Source: an uncultured Spartobacteria bacterium
GTDB lineage: Bacteria; Verrucomicrobiota; Verrucomicrobiia; Chthoniobacterales; Chthoniobacteraceae
Length of the DNA: 64,000 bases
Assembly (NCBI GenBank): GCA_903901425.1
Contig: CAIURC010000063.1
Coordinates: 62,001 to 126,000, forward strand
Direction of reading: 5' to 3'
Numbering within the stretch: position 1 is the stretch's first letter; each line of letters begins with the position of its first letter. The position numbers were made by a program, and so were the translations under genes. The notes beneath the pieces were generated by a model. The model was given only the letters and a program-made list of their open reading frames with translations. It did no database searches and had not been told where the DNA came from. This document shows, piece after piece, positions 1,165-6,518 of this stretch.

Positions 1165-2559
1165 ATGAACACGTTTGATCTCCGCGGTCCGCTGCAGCTG
1201 CCTTTTTTCCTCAAGGGTGAGCCGGGCGAGCTTTTGAAGCAGACGCGGTCTCGCTGTCCGGTATGCGAGATTGGATTGCCAGCGGAAGTCTGGCGGGCGC
1301 GCAACCAAGTCTGGTTGCGGCGGCGTTGTCCCGAACATGGGGAACAGACCACCTGCATTGCCTCCGATGCCCGGTTTTACTGGGTGTCGCGGGGGAGCAG
1401 CAGCGGGGACTGCTGTGGCGGCAGCGCCTGCAGGGCTTCTGACGGCGGTGTGGCGGGTGTTCTTGGGGGAAATGCGGGGCTGGCCGGAGGCGACATGGAC
1501 CGGCTTTCCACCTGTGTGGCTCTGATTGAGGTGGTCAACTCCTGCAACCTCGCCTGCCCCACGTGTTACGCCGATTCTCCTGCCGGAGCGGGACGCGTGG
1601 ATGCGGTGCCAGTTGAAGAGTTGAAAACCCGGATTTCCGGGGTTCTGGAGCGAAAGGGCGAGATTGATATCCTGCAGTTATCCGGAGGCGAACCCACGTT
1701 GCACCCGGACCTTTCTGAGCTGCTGGACTGGCTGCGCGGCGAGTCCCGGATCAAATACGTTTTATTGAACACCAATGGGGTCCGGTTGGCGCGCGAGCCT
1801 GGTTTTGCGGAGCGTTTGATCCAATCCACCGAGCCGGGCCGTTTCCAGATCTACCTCCAGTACGATGGACCTCAGGAAGCGGGCCAGCGCACACTCCGGG
1901 GCGCAGACTTGCGCAGCCTCCGGGAAGGCTGTCTGGATGTCTGCGAACGACTCGGGATCCCGGTGACCCTGGCGATGACGGTGACCCGGGAGAATCTGGG
2001 CTGGATGTGGGCCGCGGTGGAGGCGGGTTTGAAGTGGAGGCGGGTCCGGGGAATCACCTTTCAGCCGGTGTTCGGGAGTGGCCGCGGGGGGATGGCGGCA
2101 CGAGAGGCGGCCTTGACGACGGCAGATGTGATATTGGGGTTGGTGGACCAGTCGGCGGGCATCCTGGGATTTGAGCATTTCACCCCGCTTCCCTGCGGGG
2201 ATCCAAATTGCGCGACGACCGGCTATCTTCTGAAGGTGGGAGACGGGGTGCGTTCAATCGGGGAGTGGGTCGATTTCCGGGCGTTGCAGGGTTTTCTGGC
2301 GGACCGGTTGCGGTACCAGGTGGAGGATCTGGCCCGGTGCGGCTGCGAGTCGGAACCGCTGGGCCAGGTGTTGAAGGAACTCGAATGGGATGCCAGCCAC
2401 ACGTTCCGGTTGCTGATCAAGCCGTTCATGGATGCCCGGAGTTGGGACGAGGACCGGATCGACCGCTGCTGCACCCATGTGATCCGGCCGGACGGCCGTC
2501 TGGACTCTTTCTGTCGCTATTATTCCGGATCAAATCCATCCCATGGAACCCGACCCTGA
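1165..2559 (+). CDS. Radical SAM protein of the tetraether synthase (Tes)-like / MJ0619-like family
   Basis: 464 aa. The radical SAM cluster motif CNLACPTC lies near residue 127, followed by the SGGEPTLHP glycine-rich SAM-binding segment. It has extra cysteines: CPVC near 31 and CPEHG near 56 in an N-terminal metal-binding part, CGDPNC near 345, CGC near 378, and a C-terminal RCCTHVIRPDGRLDSFC block. From memory, this arrangement (N-terminal CPxC..CPEHG, then PCxxPxC and CCxH..PFC-like blocks) marks the family that includes archaeal Tes, which joins lipid tails by C-C bonds. That assignment rests on recalled motifs, not a search. A Gly/Ser/Cys-rich insert near residues 70-105 is unusual. It follows the GspE/PilB gene by five bases and overlaps the next membrane protein by 17 bases. 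The substrate is unknown. Confidence 0.82.
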   Translation: MNTFDLRGPLQLPFFLKGEPGELLKQTRSRCPVCEIGLPAEVWRARNQVWLRRRCPEHGEQTTCIASDARFYWVSRGSSSGDCCGGSACRASDGGVAGVLGGNAGLAGGDMDRLSTCVALIEVVNSCNLACPTCYADSPAGAGRVDAVPVEELKTRISGVLERKGEIDILQLSGGEPTLHPDLSELLDWLRGESRIKYVLLNTNGVRLAREPGFAERLIQSTEPGRFQIYLQYDGPQEAGQRTLRGADLRSLREGCLDVCERLGIPVTLAMTVTRENLGWMWAAVEAGLKWRRVRGITFQPVFGSGRGGMAAREAALTTADVILGLVDQSAGILGFEHFTPLPCGDPNCATTGYLLKVGDGVRSIGEWVDFRALQGFLADRLRYQVEDLARCGCESEPLGQVLKELEWDASHTFRLLIKPFMDARSWDEDRIDRCCTHVIRPDGRLDSFCRYYSGSNPSHGTRP

Positions 2560-2851
2560 GAACCCGAAAATTCCCGCAGGAAAACCCTTGGGCACGGCAT
2601 TGTGCCTGGCCTTTGCCCCCGCTGCCCTGTTTCTCGTTTGCTGCTTGGTCTTCCGATTTTTTCTTCAACAACCCCCGCATTTTCTCGGTGCGCCATTTTT
2701 CGTCATCGGGATTCTGGGGTTTGTGACGAGCCTTTTTGCAGGCATCCGCCTTTCACCTGACAGCCGGCTGGGTGGGGTTCTGCTCGGGCTGGGACTCTGG
2801 TTTGTGAACCTGGCTGTCTCGGTGTTCGGATGCGGCCTGATCTCCCGGTGA
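2543..2851 (+). CDS. Small three-helix membrane protein of unknown function
   Basis: 102 aa. A short polar N-terminus with PDPENPKIPAGKP is followed by about three hydrophobic segments (near residues 18-41, 46-66 and 77-99). The overall look is like short DUF4190-type membrane proteins, but I do not recognise a diagnostic motif. Its start lies inside the end of the radical SAM gene (17-base overlap) and its end overlaps the start of the Lgt-like gene, so translational coupling of all three is likely. The conserved overlap and co-orientation support a real gene. A role alongside the two flanking lipid-type enzymes is inference only. Confidence 0.72.
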   Translation: MEPDPENPKIPAGKPLGTALCLAFAPAALFLVCCLVFRFFLQQPPHFLGAPFFVIGILGFVTSLFAGIRLSPDSRLGGVLLGLGLWFVNLAVSVFGCGLISR

Positions 2852-3558
2852 ACTCGGACTCGGCCTACGGCTGGATCGTCCTTGGCTTGGTCTTGCTCGG
2901 GCTTTGGAAGTGGTCCCGCGCGGCTCGAGGCGATGTGCGTCTGCTTCAAATTTATCTCTGGGGAATCATCGGGGCGTTTCTCGGGGCAAAAGTGGTCTAT
3001 GGATTTGCCGAGGGCTGGTGGATACCCGATGCCGGCCGGGTCTGGCTCCACTGGGTAGCTGGGAAGTCCATCCTGGGCGGACTGCTTGGGGGCTGGCTGG
3101 GAGTCGAGTGTGCCAAGCGTGCCACGGGTTTTACCGCACCCACGGGAGACCGGTTTGCGGTCATGGTCGCAGGCAGCACGTGCGTGGGGCGTGTGGGGTG
3201 TATGCTGCACGGGTGCTGTCTCGGCGTGCCGATGCAACGGTGCGCCTGGAGCGTGACCGATGCCTGCGGGATTGACCGATGGCCTGCTGCCGCCGCTGAA
3301 CTGGCATTCACTGGAGTCTGCTCGCTTCTGCTGCTGGTAATCCGGAACAGCGGGCATTTCCGGAACCAGCTTTTTCACCTTTACCTCATTGGATACGGTC
3401 TTTTCAGGGCATGGCACGAGACACTCCGGGACACGCCGCGGTGGGGGGGCGGCGTCAGCGGATACCAGATGGTGGCACTGTTCATGGCTGGGCTTGCAGC
3501 CGCAGCTTATGCGTTGCGAGCCCGGGGACAGGCGGCGGATTCCGAGGCCGGCGGTTGA
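2830..3558 (+). CDS. Divergent Lgt-like (prolipoprotein diacylglyceryl transferase family) membrane protein
   Basis: 242 aa polytopic membrane protein. It shows Lgt-family landmarks: GKSILGGLLGGWLGVE, the GRVGCMLHGCCLG block matching the GRxGxFxNxxxxG signature in its GCC variant, and a C-terminal FRAWHETLRDTP...SGYQ segment. The usual HPxQLYE motif is altered to RWPAAAAEL, keeping only P and E, so this is likely a paralogue with another acceptor or donor rather than the housekeeping Lgt. Real Lgt moves diacylglycerol from phosphatidylglycerol to a lipobox cysteine in the inner membrane. ATG 2830 gives a 22-base overlap with the previous gene. GTG 2848 would give a GTGA overlap and is an alternative start. 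Confidence 0.8.
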   Translation: MRPDLPVNSDSAYGWIVLGLVLLGLWKWSRAARGDVRLLQIYLWGIIGAFLGAKVVYGFAEGWWIPDAGRVWLHWVAGKSILGGLLGGWLGVECAKRATGFTAPTGDRFAVMVAGSTCVGRVGCMLHGCCLGVPMQRCAWSVTDACGIDRWPAAAAELAFTGVCSLLLLVIRNSGHFRNQLFHLYLIGYGLFRAWHETLRDTPRWGGGVSGYQMVALFMAGLAAAAYALRARGQAADSEAGG

Positions 3559-3652: not shown

Positions 3653-5995
3653 ATGGAAAAAAAGGGTCAGTCCGACGAGGGGGCGGGCGAGTGGGTTTAC
3701 CGGGTGGACGGGATGCGCTGTGCTTCTTGCGTGGGCAACGTGGAACGGGTGGTCGGTTCGGTCCGGGGTGTGGAGCGTGTGGCGGTGGATTTGCTCGGGG
3801 GAACCGTCCGGGTGCGTCCCGGTGCGGAAACGGATCCCGGCGCAGTGGCGGACGCTCTGGCCCGGGCCGGGTATGGTGCGGAGCGGGTCTTTGGGGATCC
3901 ATGGCAGGATCGGGAGGCTTTGGAGGAGACGGCCGCTGCGCGGCGGGCATTTTTCCGGGCGGGGCTTCTGGCGTTGCCACTTTTGATTTGTGAACTTGGG
4001 ATGCACTTCCTGCCCGCAGTCCATCATGGATTGCGGGAGGTTCCCGGTTTGCCGTGGGTGCTTTTGGCGCTTTCCACTGGGATCCATGTGGGGCCCGGCC
4101 GCCAGTTTTATATTCAGGGCTGGGCAGCCTTTCGGAGGAGGGTTCCTGACATGAATTCCCTGGTGCTGCTCGGAGCCGGTGCCGCCTATCTTCAGGCATG
4201 GGCGGTCCTCCTTCTGCCAGGCATGAAACACGGCATGCTGGCAGGCGCGGGGGACAGCTCCGGGATTGTGGTTACGCTCGTTCTTCTGGGGCGCTGGATG
4301 GAGGGTGTGGCACGTGGAAAAACCGGGGATGCGGTCCGAAGTTTGCTGGAACTCCAGCCGAAGACGGCCCTCGTCAGGCGGGCGGGTGTTTTTGAAGTGG
4401 TGAATGCCGCCAGTTTACGGGTCGGGGACGAGTTTCTGGTCCGACCCGGAGAACGGTTTCCCGTGGATGGCGAGGTGTTGGAGGGGGTGTCGTCGATGGA
4501 TCGAAGTCTGGTGACCGGTGAGTCGGAGCCGGTTGTGTGTGTGCCTGGTGTCCGGGTCTTGGGCGGGGCGTTGAACGGTCATGGCGGGGTGGTTTGCCGG
4601 GCAACTCAGGTGGGTGGCGCCACAACACTGGCGCGGATTGCGGACATGGTCCGGCGTGCCCGGAGCACCAGACTCCCGGTGGAGGCGATGGTCGATCGGG
4701 TGACGGCGGTGTTTGTTCCCATGGTGCTCGGGATTGCTGGAGCCTCATTTCTGGGGTGGCTGTGGTCCGGGAGCGGTTTGGGTGTGGCATGGACACACGC
4801 GGCCTCGGTGATGATTGTCGCCTGTCCCTGCGCCATGGGATTGGCAGTGCCAACCTCGGTGCTGGTGGCTTCGGGGCGCGCGGCCCGGCTCGGCATCCTG
4901 TTCCGCAAGGGAGAAGCGTTGCAGCGCTTGGCAGGCATCCGTGTCCTGCTTTTCGACAAGACGGGCACGCTGACCTCTGGACATTTTCAGGTGGTGGATG
5001 TTTTGCCCGGCCCAAGTGTGGCTGGGGATTGGCTTCTGCGGTGCGCGGCATCGGTGGAAGCATTCTCGGAACACCCTGTGGCCGGGGCCTTGGTTCGGGC
5101 AGCCGCAGAACGCGGGCTTGAGCCGGGTAAGATCTCGGATTTCCAAGCCGTACCCGGGCGTGGTGTCAGTGGATGCTGGGCGGAGGATAGGCAGGAAGGA
5201 GTGCTGGCCGGCAGCATGGCTTTCATGAGGGATTCGGGAGTTTCGGGCACGGAGGGTACAGAAAGTGCGGCAGGTGCGGAGGCACCTTTGACGGAGGTGC
5301 ATGTGGCAATTGGTAGACGGTACCTTGGCCGGATCCGAGTCGGAGATGAGATTCGAGCGTCGGCACGGGATGCGGTGCGGGCGCTTGAGGCGATGGGGAT
5401 CCGGGTGGCGATGGTCACCGGAGACCGCCTTCAGAGCGCGGGGGCGGTGGCTCGAGCGCTGGGTATTAGGGAGGTGCGCGCGGAACTGGATCCGGGTGCG
5501 AAGATGCGGGAGGTGCGGGCATTTGGTGGAAGCGGGCCGGTGGGATTTGTCGGGGACGGGATCAACGATGCGCCTGCGTTGGTGGCGGCGGATGTGGGGA
5601 TTGCCATGGGCGGGGGCACGGATGTGGCGGCTGAGAGTGCGGGTGTGGTCTTGGTTGGCGGTGATTTGCGGCGGTTGCCGGATGCAGTTCGGTTGTCCCG
5701 GGCAACTGTGCGCAACCTGAGGGAGAACTTGGGCTGGGCGTTCGGATACAACGCGCTGTTGATCCCACTGGCTGCTGGCGTTTTTGAGCCGGTATGTGGC
5801 CTGAAATTGACTCCGGAGTTTTCAGGTCTGGCCATGGCGTTTTCGAGTGTCAGCGTGTTGCTGAACGCTCTTCGGTTGCGCAGGTTCCGGGCAGTTTTTC
5901 CGGAAGATGGGCGGACGGCGAAGGACAAAAACGGTTCTCCCCAAACGGATGGGGAAGCTATAAAGAGGGGCGATGAGCGGGTGCAGTCATCCTGA
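3653..5995 (+). CDS. copA: Cu(I)-exporting P1B-type ATPase
   Basis: 780 aa from ATG 3653. The track start at 3599 adds residues unlike the family, while MEKKGQ... leads straight into the metal-binding domain. Domains: one HMA domain with GMRCASC near residue 23, transmembrane helices, the CPC ion-binding motif near 390, phosphorylation motif DKTGTLT near 436, SEHP near 472, and GDGINDAPAL near 635. The C-terminal helices carry YN and MAFSSVSV, the residues expected of the Cu(I) P1B-1 subgroup. It pumps Cu(I) out of the cytoplasm, either for detoxification or cuproprotein supply. It ends 23 bases inside the following Fur-family gene, which suggests the regulator and pump are made together. The GC-rich, Gly/Val/Arg-rich coding matches its neighbours. 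Confidence 0.95.
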   Translation: MEKKGQSDEGAGEWVYRVDGMRCASCVGNVERVVGSVRGVERVAVDLLGGTVRVRPGAETDPGAVADALARAGYGAERVFGDPWQDREALEETAAARRAFFRAGLLALPLLICELGMHFLPAVHHGLREVPGLPWVLLALSTGIHVGPGRQFYIQGWAAFRRRVPDMNSLVLLGAGAAYLQAWAVLLLPGMKHGMLAGAGDSSGIVVTLVLLGRWMEGVARGKTGDAVRSLLELQPKTALVRRAGVFEVVNAASLRVGDEFLVRPGERFPVDGEVLEGVSSMDRSLVTGESEPVVCVPGVRVLGGALNGHGGVVCRATQVGGATTLARIADMVRRARSTRLPVEAMVDRVTAVFVPMVLGIAGASFLGWLWSGSGLGVAWTHAASVMIVACPCAMGLAVPTSVLVASGRAARLGILFRKGEALQRLAGIRVLLFDKTGTLTSGHFQVVDVLPGPSVAGDWLLRCAASVEAFSEHPVAGALVRAAAERGLEPGKISDFQAVPGRGVSGCWAEDRQEGVLAGSMAFMRDSGVSGTEGTESAAGAEAPLTEVHVAIGRRYLGRIRVGDEIRASARDAVRALEAMGIRVAMVTGDRLQSAGAVARALGIREVRAELDPGAKMREVRAFGGSGPVGFVGDGINDAPALVAADVGIAMGGGTDVAAESAGVVLVGGDLRRLPDAVRLSRATVRNLRENLGWAFGYNALLIPLAAGVFEPVCGLKLTPEFSGLAMAFSSVSVLLNALRLRRFRAVFPEDGRTAKDKNGSPQTDGEAIKRGDERVQSS

Positions 5996-6518
5996 AAATA
6001 TCAAGCCGGACCTTCTGCTGGAGGCGGCGGTTCAGGTGCTCCGGGAGCACCAGCACCGGGTGACGGTGCCGCGGCGCGCGATTCTTTCCGTATTGGTCCG
6101 GGAACACGGGCCATTCACCGCGGACGAGATCCACCGGCGGGTCGGGGGCGAAGTGTGCGATCTGGTGACGGTGTACCGGTGTCTTGGTGCGATGGAGGAG
6201 ATTGGACTGGTGCGCCGGTGCGATTTTGGCGACGGCTCCTACCGGTACGAGGTGAGCGTGGGTGGCGAGCACCACCACCACATCATCTGCCGGTCCTGTC
6301 ACTCTGTGGAAACTCTGGACCGTTGCATGGCAGAGGAGCTCGAAAGGCTCGCCCGAAGAATGGGGTACGTGGCGGTTTCGCACACGCTTGAAGTGTTTGG
6401 GGTCTGCACAAAATGTCAGCAGACCGCCTCCCAAGACGGACCCGCCACCCGAAGCGGGGTGGTTGTGGAACGGCTCCCCGGAGGATGTTGCCCGCCACCC
6501 AAGCAGCGTTCCCGGTAG
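5973..6518 (+). CDS. Fur-family metal-responsive transcriptional regulator
   Basis: 181 aa. An N-terminal winged helix is recognisable from RVTVPRRAILSVL, FTADEIHRRV and DLVTVYRCLGAMEEIGLV. The dimerisation domain has a histidine cluster EHHHHIICRSC, and the structural zinc site is formed by CRSC and CTKC. The track start overlaps copA by 23 bases, which I keep because the helix-turn-helix follows at the usual distance. The tail after residue 155 is longer than typical Fur and contains GGCCPPP, possibly an extra metal ligand. The family includes Fur (iron), Zur (zinc), PerR and others. Coupling to a copper ATPase is unusual, and the sensed metal cannot be assigned. Confidence 0.88.
   Translation: MSGCSHPENIKPDLLLEAAVQVLREHQHRVTVPRRAILSVLVREHGPFTADEIHRRVGGEVCDLVTVYRCLGAMEEIGLVRRCDFGDGSYRYEVSVGGEHHHHIICRSCHSVETLDRCMAEELERLARRMGYVAVSHTLEVFGVCTKCQQTASQDGPATRSGVVVERLPGGCCPPPKQRSR

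Follow-up and report, generated by a model that had tools for sequence, protein, structure and literature searches.

A Tes-like radical SAM protein, an altered Lgt paralogue and small cysteine-ended membrane proteins form a conserved genetic unit in Verrucomicrobiota that may attach lipid to protein

Results

Three overlapping genes in an uncultured Spartobacteria bacterium

The stretch of DNA analysed here, referred to as the window, comprises 64,000 nucleotides of the 5.1-Mb, 96% complete genome of an uncultured Spartobacteria bacterium (G000). Three genes on its + strand encode a Tes-like radical SAM enzyme of 464 residues (hereafter rSAM; 1165..2559), a small three-helix membrane protein of 102 residues that ends ...NLAVSVFGC-GLISR and is a putative lipid acceptor (2543..2851), and a 242-residue paralogue of Lgt, which we call LgtL (2830..3558). 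The assignment of rSAM draws on Pfam and NCBIfam models, a match to PDB entry 7TOL and cysteine conservation; that of LgtL draws on Pfam LGT, alignments, an AF2 model and a PDB match. The first-pass annotation had described these as successively overlapping open reading frames, and the same coordinates, strand and overlaps of exactly 17 and 22 bp were re-found. Within the second overlap, the codon for Cys97 of the small protein (2831..2833, +), a conserved cysteine predicted to face outward, overlaps the LgtL start codon (2830-2832). The flanking genes were rejected as parts of the unit. A gspE-type gene stops 5 bases before the rSAM start, and GspE was found near only a single relative, ~4.6 kb off and on the opposite strand. 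Downstream, positions 3653-6518 encode a copper-type (CopA-type) P-type ATPase (TIGR01511, 500 bits) and, after and overlapping it, a regulator of the Fur family; a homologue of either was present at 0 of 28 related loci screened.

The radical SAM protein is related to Tes

Tes, the tetraether lipid synthase, joins archaeal lipid tails through an sp3-sp3 C-C bond. The rSAM protein carries the Pfam domains Zn_ribbon_HMPTM and Radical_SAM, and a Pfam search of the genome returned no second Zn_ribbon_HMPTM protein. Its RS cluster motif, CX3CX2C (C127/C131/C134), is invariant in alignment A1, and its rubredoxin-type site, C31-X2-C34-X20-C55-X2-H58, has ligand spacing identical to that of MJ0619/Tes, C9X2C12X20C33X2H36 (PMC9433317). 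Cysteines of the auxiliary-cluster type (C435/C436/C450) lie at the C-terminus, where the RCC...FC cluster region is common to both proteins. The kinship with Tes that had been proposed from this cysteine layout was borne out over the full length: MJ0619/Tes (PDB 7TOL) was matched with E 3e-37 from the single sequence and with E 1.5e-69 from a profile built from 19 sequences, and is the only strong relative of solved structure; the alignment is colinear throughout, starting at the rubredoxin domain and reaching the C-terminal cluster domain. Family membership does not follow, since the protein scored 159 bits against the NCBIfam Tes model NF045702 (cut-off 450) and 214 bits against the TrsS model NF045646 (cut-off 490). 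TrsS, its best-scoring named family, is an uncharacterised radical SAM (seleno)protein whose model covers residues 26-454, whereas the window reading frame has no internal TGA/Sec codon. An identity as the anti-phage protein viperin was rejected because only the shared radical SAM core scores (30 bits). Its nearest kin are Tes and TrsS, and it does not fall in a characterised nonlipid family.

Several features set the two proteins apart. The N-terminal auxiliary cluster of Tes, C73-X3-C77-X2-C80 plus His, has no counterpart in the window protein (CCGGSAC); it is kept only in L054-type relatives (CPYDCGLC) and lost in the close rSAM family. Moreover, Met439 and Tyr459 of Tes, reported to be completely conserved among archaeal homologues (PMC9433317), are changed (the corresponding segments read IKPFMDA and RCCTHV), and Tes chemistry therefore cannot be assumed. 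Tes (GDGT-MAS) also lacks the LgtL partnership that the window protein has. In a tree of 26 rSAMs all LgtL-partnered proteins fall on one side of a branch and Tes among the others, with support of 88/89, which is not decisive. Judged by its sequence, rSAM is a relative of Tes and not Tes itself.

LgtL is an Lgt paralogue with an altered active-site signature

Lgt is the phosphatidylglycerol:prolipoprotein diacylglyceryl transferase. LgtL scored 73 bits against Pfam LGT (PF01790; cut-off 24.9) and 34.9 bits against the Lgt equivalog TIGR00544, below its cut-off of 118.9. When its AF2 model (pLDDT 91.6) was compared with the PDB, E. coli Lgt (5AZB; E 9.3e-6, TM 0.63) was the only significant match; a profile of 23 sequences, two of them canonical Lgts, also recovered this entry. 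LgtL thus shares the Lgt fold, but it is a second copy in the genome and is linked to small proteins with a C-terminal cysteine. A canonical Lgt lies elsewhere in the same genome (at C170, 206.8 bits) and is the only other PF01790 protein there, which makes LgtL a paralogue and rules out the possibility that it is simply the lgt of this organism. No match to the window LgtL was found in the plasmid collection.

Arg143, Glu202, Arg239, Glu243 and Arg246 of E. coli Lgt are kept as R121, E157, R193, E197 and R200, and the counterparts of the essential Arg143 and Arg239, R121 and R193, are invariant in alignment A2. As the first reading of the sequence had noted, most of the HPxQLYE motif is gone, with HPSQLYE replaced by WPAAAAE, and the Lgt signature GRLGNFINGE has become GRVGCMLHGCC. 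In the close family K79, C124, C129 and C130 are invariant; C124 occupies the position of Lgt N146, and C129/C130 lie near that of E151. His103 (HGGL) of Lgt is absent from the whole LgtL group, the window protein having GKSILGG in its place, and for the E. coli residue none of five substitutions complemented (PMC4728403). The transfer chemistry may accordingly differ or be absent, and the absence of His103, as seen in the alignments, is the chief warning against reading LgtL as a lipid transferase.

Small membrane proteins with a C-terminal cysteine recur at the cassette

The AF2 model of the small protein agrees with the three helices claimed for it (residues 16-40, 45-70 and 75-101), at modest confidence (pLDDT 77.8). 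P26, N89, G96 and C97 are invariant in its subfamily (alignment A4), and Cys97 lies 5 residues from the C-terminus. A profile search of the genome gave no second clear member of this family (next match E 0.28), the 2543-2851 frame is the only one in the 64-kb window that passes a [GAST]C screen, and no Pfam or NCBIfam model exceeded its cut-off with the small proteins tested. Across related loci, such proteins, which are divergent among themselves, are encoded between rSAM and LgtL and/or directly upstream of rSAM, at some loci as arrays of two to about five copies; at L043, L109 and L112, three to five tandem, divergent three-helix genes lie between the two enzyme genes. Of 94 distinct close loci, 81 yielded a small protein in a strict screen, which gives a lower bound; four of the 13 loci with no match have single-helix versions. 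Some single-helix versions carry an N-terminal zinc ribbon.

Small genes occur at 28.9 per 100 kb within the cassette and at 1.8 per 100 kb in the flanking DNA, and many of the flanking matches are further tandem copies; because this screen required a cysteine, the density taken alone is partly circular. A less circular comparison, of ORFs with a C-terminal TM helix and no cysteine requirement, found a cysteine within the last 16 residues in 129 of 145 cassette ORFs (89%) versus 94 of 202 outside (47%; p 5e-17), the outside background including many spurious ORFs. These proteins, which the first-pass annotation had overlooked as a group, are a repeated class and not incidental.

The cysteine has a consistent setting. 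It is preceded by Gly at -1 in 57% of cases and by Phe at -3 in 50%, and is followed by 0-15 residues, so that a typical protein ends in F-x-G-C and a short tail. The helix that bears it is the final, sometimes the only and rarely the first TM helix, and is predicted to run from inside to outside. K/R outnumber D/E by 351 to 74 ahead of the last helix and by 72 to 23 in the tail, and the basic residues that precede the helix place the cysteine, by prediction, outside. As in lipobox substrates, an in-to-out TM helix is followed by a small residue and a cysteine (TM3 and G96-C97 in the window protein, the charge bias supporting this topology). Unlike them, the protein has no N-terminal signal peptide and the cysteine is not the mature N-terminus; moreover, the classical lipobox prefers Leu at -3, whereas the small proteins prefer Phe.

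The three components form a conserved unit

A close rSAM (~54-65% identity) was found in 21 of 286 Verrucomicrobiae genomes, the window's own included, spread over about a dozen families. Strong LgtL matches (E <= 2e-45) occurred in 20 of the 286, all of them among these 21, and in the remaining genome (G154) a distant LgtL adjoins the rSAM gene; the genomes in this count are not independent samples. The next-best LgtL matches came from four genomes with distant rSAMs (29-34% identity), and in each the two genes are adjacent. We also examined 80 named loci, almost all labelled Verrucomicrobiota, that came from a genome-wide scan; given enough flank, LgtL nearly always follows rSAM on the same strand. 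Seven loci at which LgtL was not seen beside rSAM were checked; for six of these it lies elsewhere in the same genome, and the seventh rSAM locus is on a 4.5-kb contig. Within families the distribution is uneven: rSAM and LgtL are both missing from the one further genome sampled in the window's own genus and from most sampled members of its family, although one member has both. Cultured carriers include Chthoniobacter flavus, Luteolibacter, Haloferula and Roseibacillus.

Thus the three-gene set does recur elsewhere, with a small protein in at least 81 of the 94 close loci; an arrangement found in dozens of genomes is beyond chance, and rSAM, LgtL and the small proteins constitute a conserved genetic unit.

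Distant versions keep the cysteine

More distant versions occur inside and outside the phylum. Three Verrucomicrobiota genomes encode an rSAM of 29-31% identity, LgtL and a three-helix protein ending [SA]C... In Persicobacter (Bacteroidota), overlapping LgtL and rSAM genes are accompanied by a 59-residue protein ending GICGSLLS. Mycobacterium branderi, M. avium and Nonomuraea have LgtL, a related rSAM and one or two small proteins, whose tails in Mycobacterium and Nonomuraea read xC-TG[LI]NP... (CTG[LI]NP); a tblastn search of the plasmid collection with one such actinomycetotal protein returned only records from M. branderi, M. avium and Nonomuraea. The mycobacterial cassette lies on plasmids near transposase genes (L147, L150) and may be mobile, and that of M. 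branderi adjoins DUF3558 genes. At L058 and L181 it is the first helix whose outer end carries the cysteine. This placement suggests that what the versions share is an in-to-out helix with a cysteine after it.

These versions bear on the possibility that the small protein serves LgtL as a structural or redox partner in one membrane complex, where its outer cysteine would pair with C124/C129/C130 of LgtL (through a disulfide, a metal site or a thioester relay) and accept no lipid. The LgtL cysteines are invariant at the active-site signature, and the small-protein cysteine is predicted to lie on the same membrane face. However, the CC pair is absent from the LgtLs of Actinomycetota and Bacteroidota and from L054-type LgtLs, whereas their small proteins keep the cysteine, and we regard this arrangement as distinctly improbable.

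In two of the three distant Verrucomicrobiota genomes a gene for a PEMT/ICMT-family methyltransferase (43-48 bits) lies between rSAM and LgtL (L177, 4853-5455; L178, 5090-5671). This family comprises phospholipid or isoprenylcysteine carboxyl methyltransferases, whose substrates are phospholipids or lipidated cysteines. Enzymes of the Tes/TrsS-like superfamily also occur in other settings. On haloarchaeal plasmids and one Mycolicibacterium plasmid, a Tes/TrsS-like rSAM gene stands immediately before one for a methyltransferase, and no LgtL is nearby (L146, 5980-8143; L148, 6007-8117; L144, 5968-8336), and these loci represent another partner set for the superfamily. In L059, L060 and L061 (family f14), two very divergent Tes/TrsS-like rSAM genes stand in tandem without LgtL.

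Discussion

The Lgt fold of LgtL, the homology of rSAM to Tes, the position and predicted topology of the small-protein cysteine and the co-occurrence of all three components are observations from which a function can be proposed. Lgt works at the outer leaflet on a cysteine that follows an in-to-out helix. Partners that are multicopy and variable, and that hold one residue constant, look like substrates, as the tandem arrays suggest; combined with a cysteine that Lgt could reach, they lead us to infer lipidation by LgtL and lipid tailoring by rSAM. Our favoured explanation, to which we give a little less than an even chance, is that the cassette encodes a dedicated pathway that attaches lipid to small membrane proteins. 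The in-to-out helix, ending in a lipobox-like F-x-G-C and a short tail, would present the cysteine at the outer face; LgtL would move a glycerolipid group onto its thiol; and rSAM, on the cytosolic side, would activate an unreactive C-H of a lipid chain and so make or alter the lipid used, most likely by chain joining or branching, as Tes does. The methyltransferase at two loci, the retention of the catalytic arginines of Lgt and the full-length alignment of rSAM with Tes also count for this pathway. Confidence differs among its parts: a lipid is somewhat favoured as the rSAM substrate, the small-protein cysteine is evenly poised as the lipid acceptor, and chain coupling specifically is doubtful.

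The first-pass annotation had suggested that the two enzymes act together on a lipid, and a joint lipid role fits the data presented here. In that model they remodel bulk membrane lipid into glycerolipids that are branched or have joined tails, while the small protein acts as a membrane scaffold or subunit. The full-length homology of rSAM to Tes and the arginines kept in LgtL, which handle the diacylglyceryl group, are as expected if this were so, and bacterial Tes homologues have been proposed, without confirmation, as the source of brGDGTs (PMC8941075, PMC11868695). However, one would expect a scaffold to be present in a single copy and to be better conserved, and the model leaves unexplained the variable, multicopy small proteins, each with its terminal Gly-Cys. 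This conserved, outward-facing C-terminal Gly-Cys points to protein lipidation rather than bulk-lipid synthesis, and we consider the bulk-lipid model unlikely.

The tandem arrays, with their short and variable tails, resemble precursors, and so raise peptide-type maturation as another alternative: rSAM would modify one residue in the small protein, for instance near N89-G96-C97, and LgtL would then lipidate the product, as in a lipidated RiPP, after which LspA may cut before the cysteine and free a short lipopeptide. The DAG-RiPPs show that such hybrids exist (PMC12636315), combining a modifying enzyme with Lgt-type lipidation of a small protein as proposed here, but they use a canonical N-terminal lipobox, the host Lgt and an MNIO, where the cassette has a radical SAM enzyme. 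Against this alternative, no leader peptide or recognition domain is seen, the nearest relatives of rSAM are Tes and TrsS and not peptide maturases, and the target lies at the outer face while rSAM is expected in the cytosol; we judge it highly improbable.

Dedicated lipid attachment, our preferred reading, has a parallel in the MYXO-CTERM proteins, in which an invariant cysteine near a C-terminal TM helix is proposed to be lipidated, with Lgt as candidate enzyme (PMC11980579). In the MYXO-CTERM/myxosortase system, however, the protein is outside and its cysteine comes before the helix, whereas here the cysteine comes after it and the predicted location of the N-terminus is inside. In the literature searched we found no description of the rSAM–Lgt pairing or of the cassette. 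The enzyme superfamilies are already known; their pairing with small proteins would be a new variation on lipoprotein-type modification, and there is a real chance that it represents a new kind. In its fullest form, a new type of protein lipidation in which LgtL acts on a lipobox at the C-terminal end of membrane proteins and draws on, or feeds, a lipid tailored by rSAM, possibly a tail-joined, bilayer-spanning anchor, the proposal is speculative and rather unlikely.

No bacterial Tes homologue has been confirmed as a maker of brGDGTs, the role proposed for them (PMC11868695), and a survey in which each homologue is scored as a gene for membrane-spanning lipids may therefore mislead. For the LgtL-partnered subfamily, the specific partner set suggests a job other than making a membrane-spanning lipid. 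Since the cassette occurs in cultured strains, its function is directly testable. To our knowledge, no dedicated bacterial enzyme for lipidation of a C-terminal cysteine was known before; lipidation of the small proteins would make LgtL the first such enzyme in bacteria. If true, this would also bear on the lipidating enzyme proposed for MYXO-CTERM proteins.
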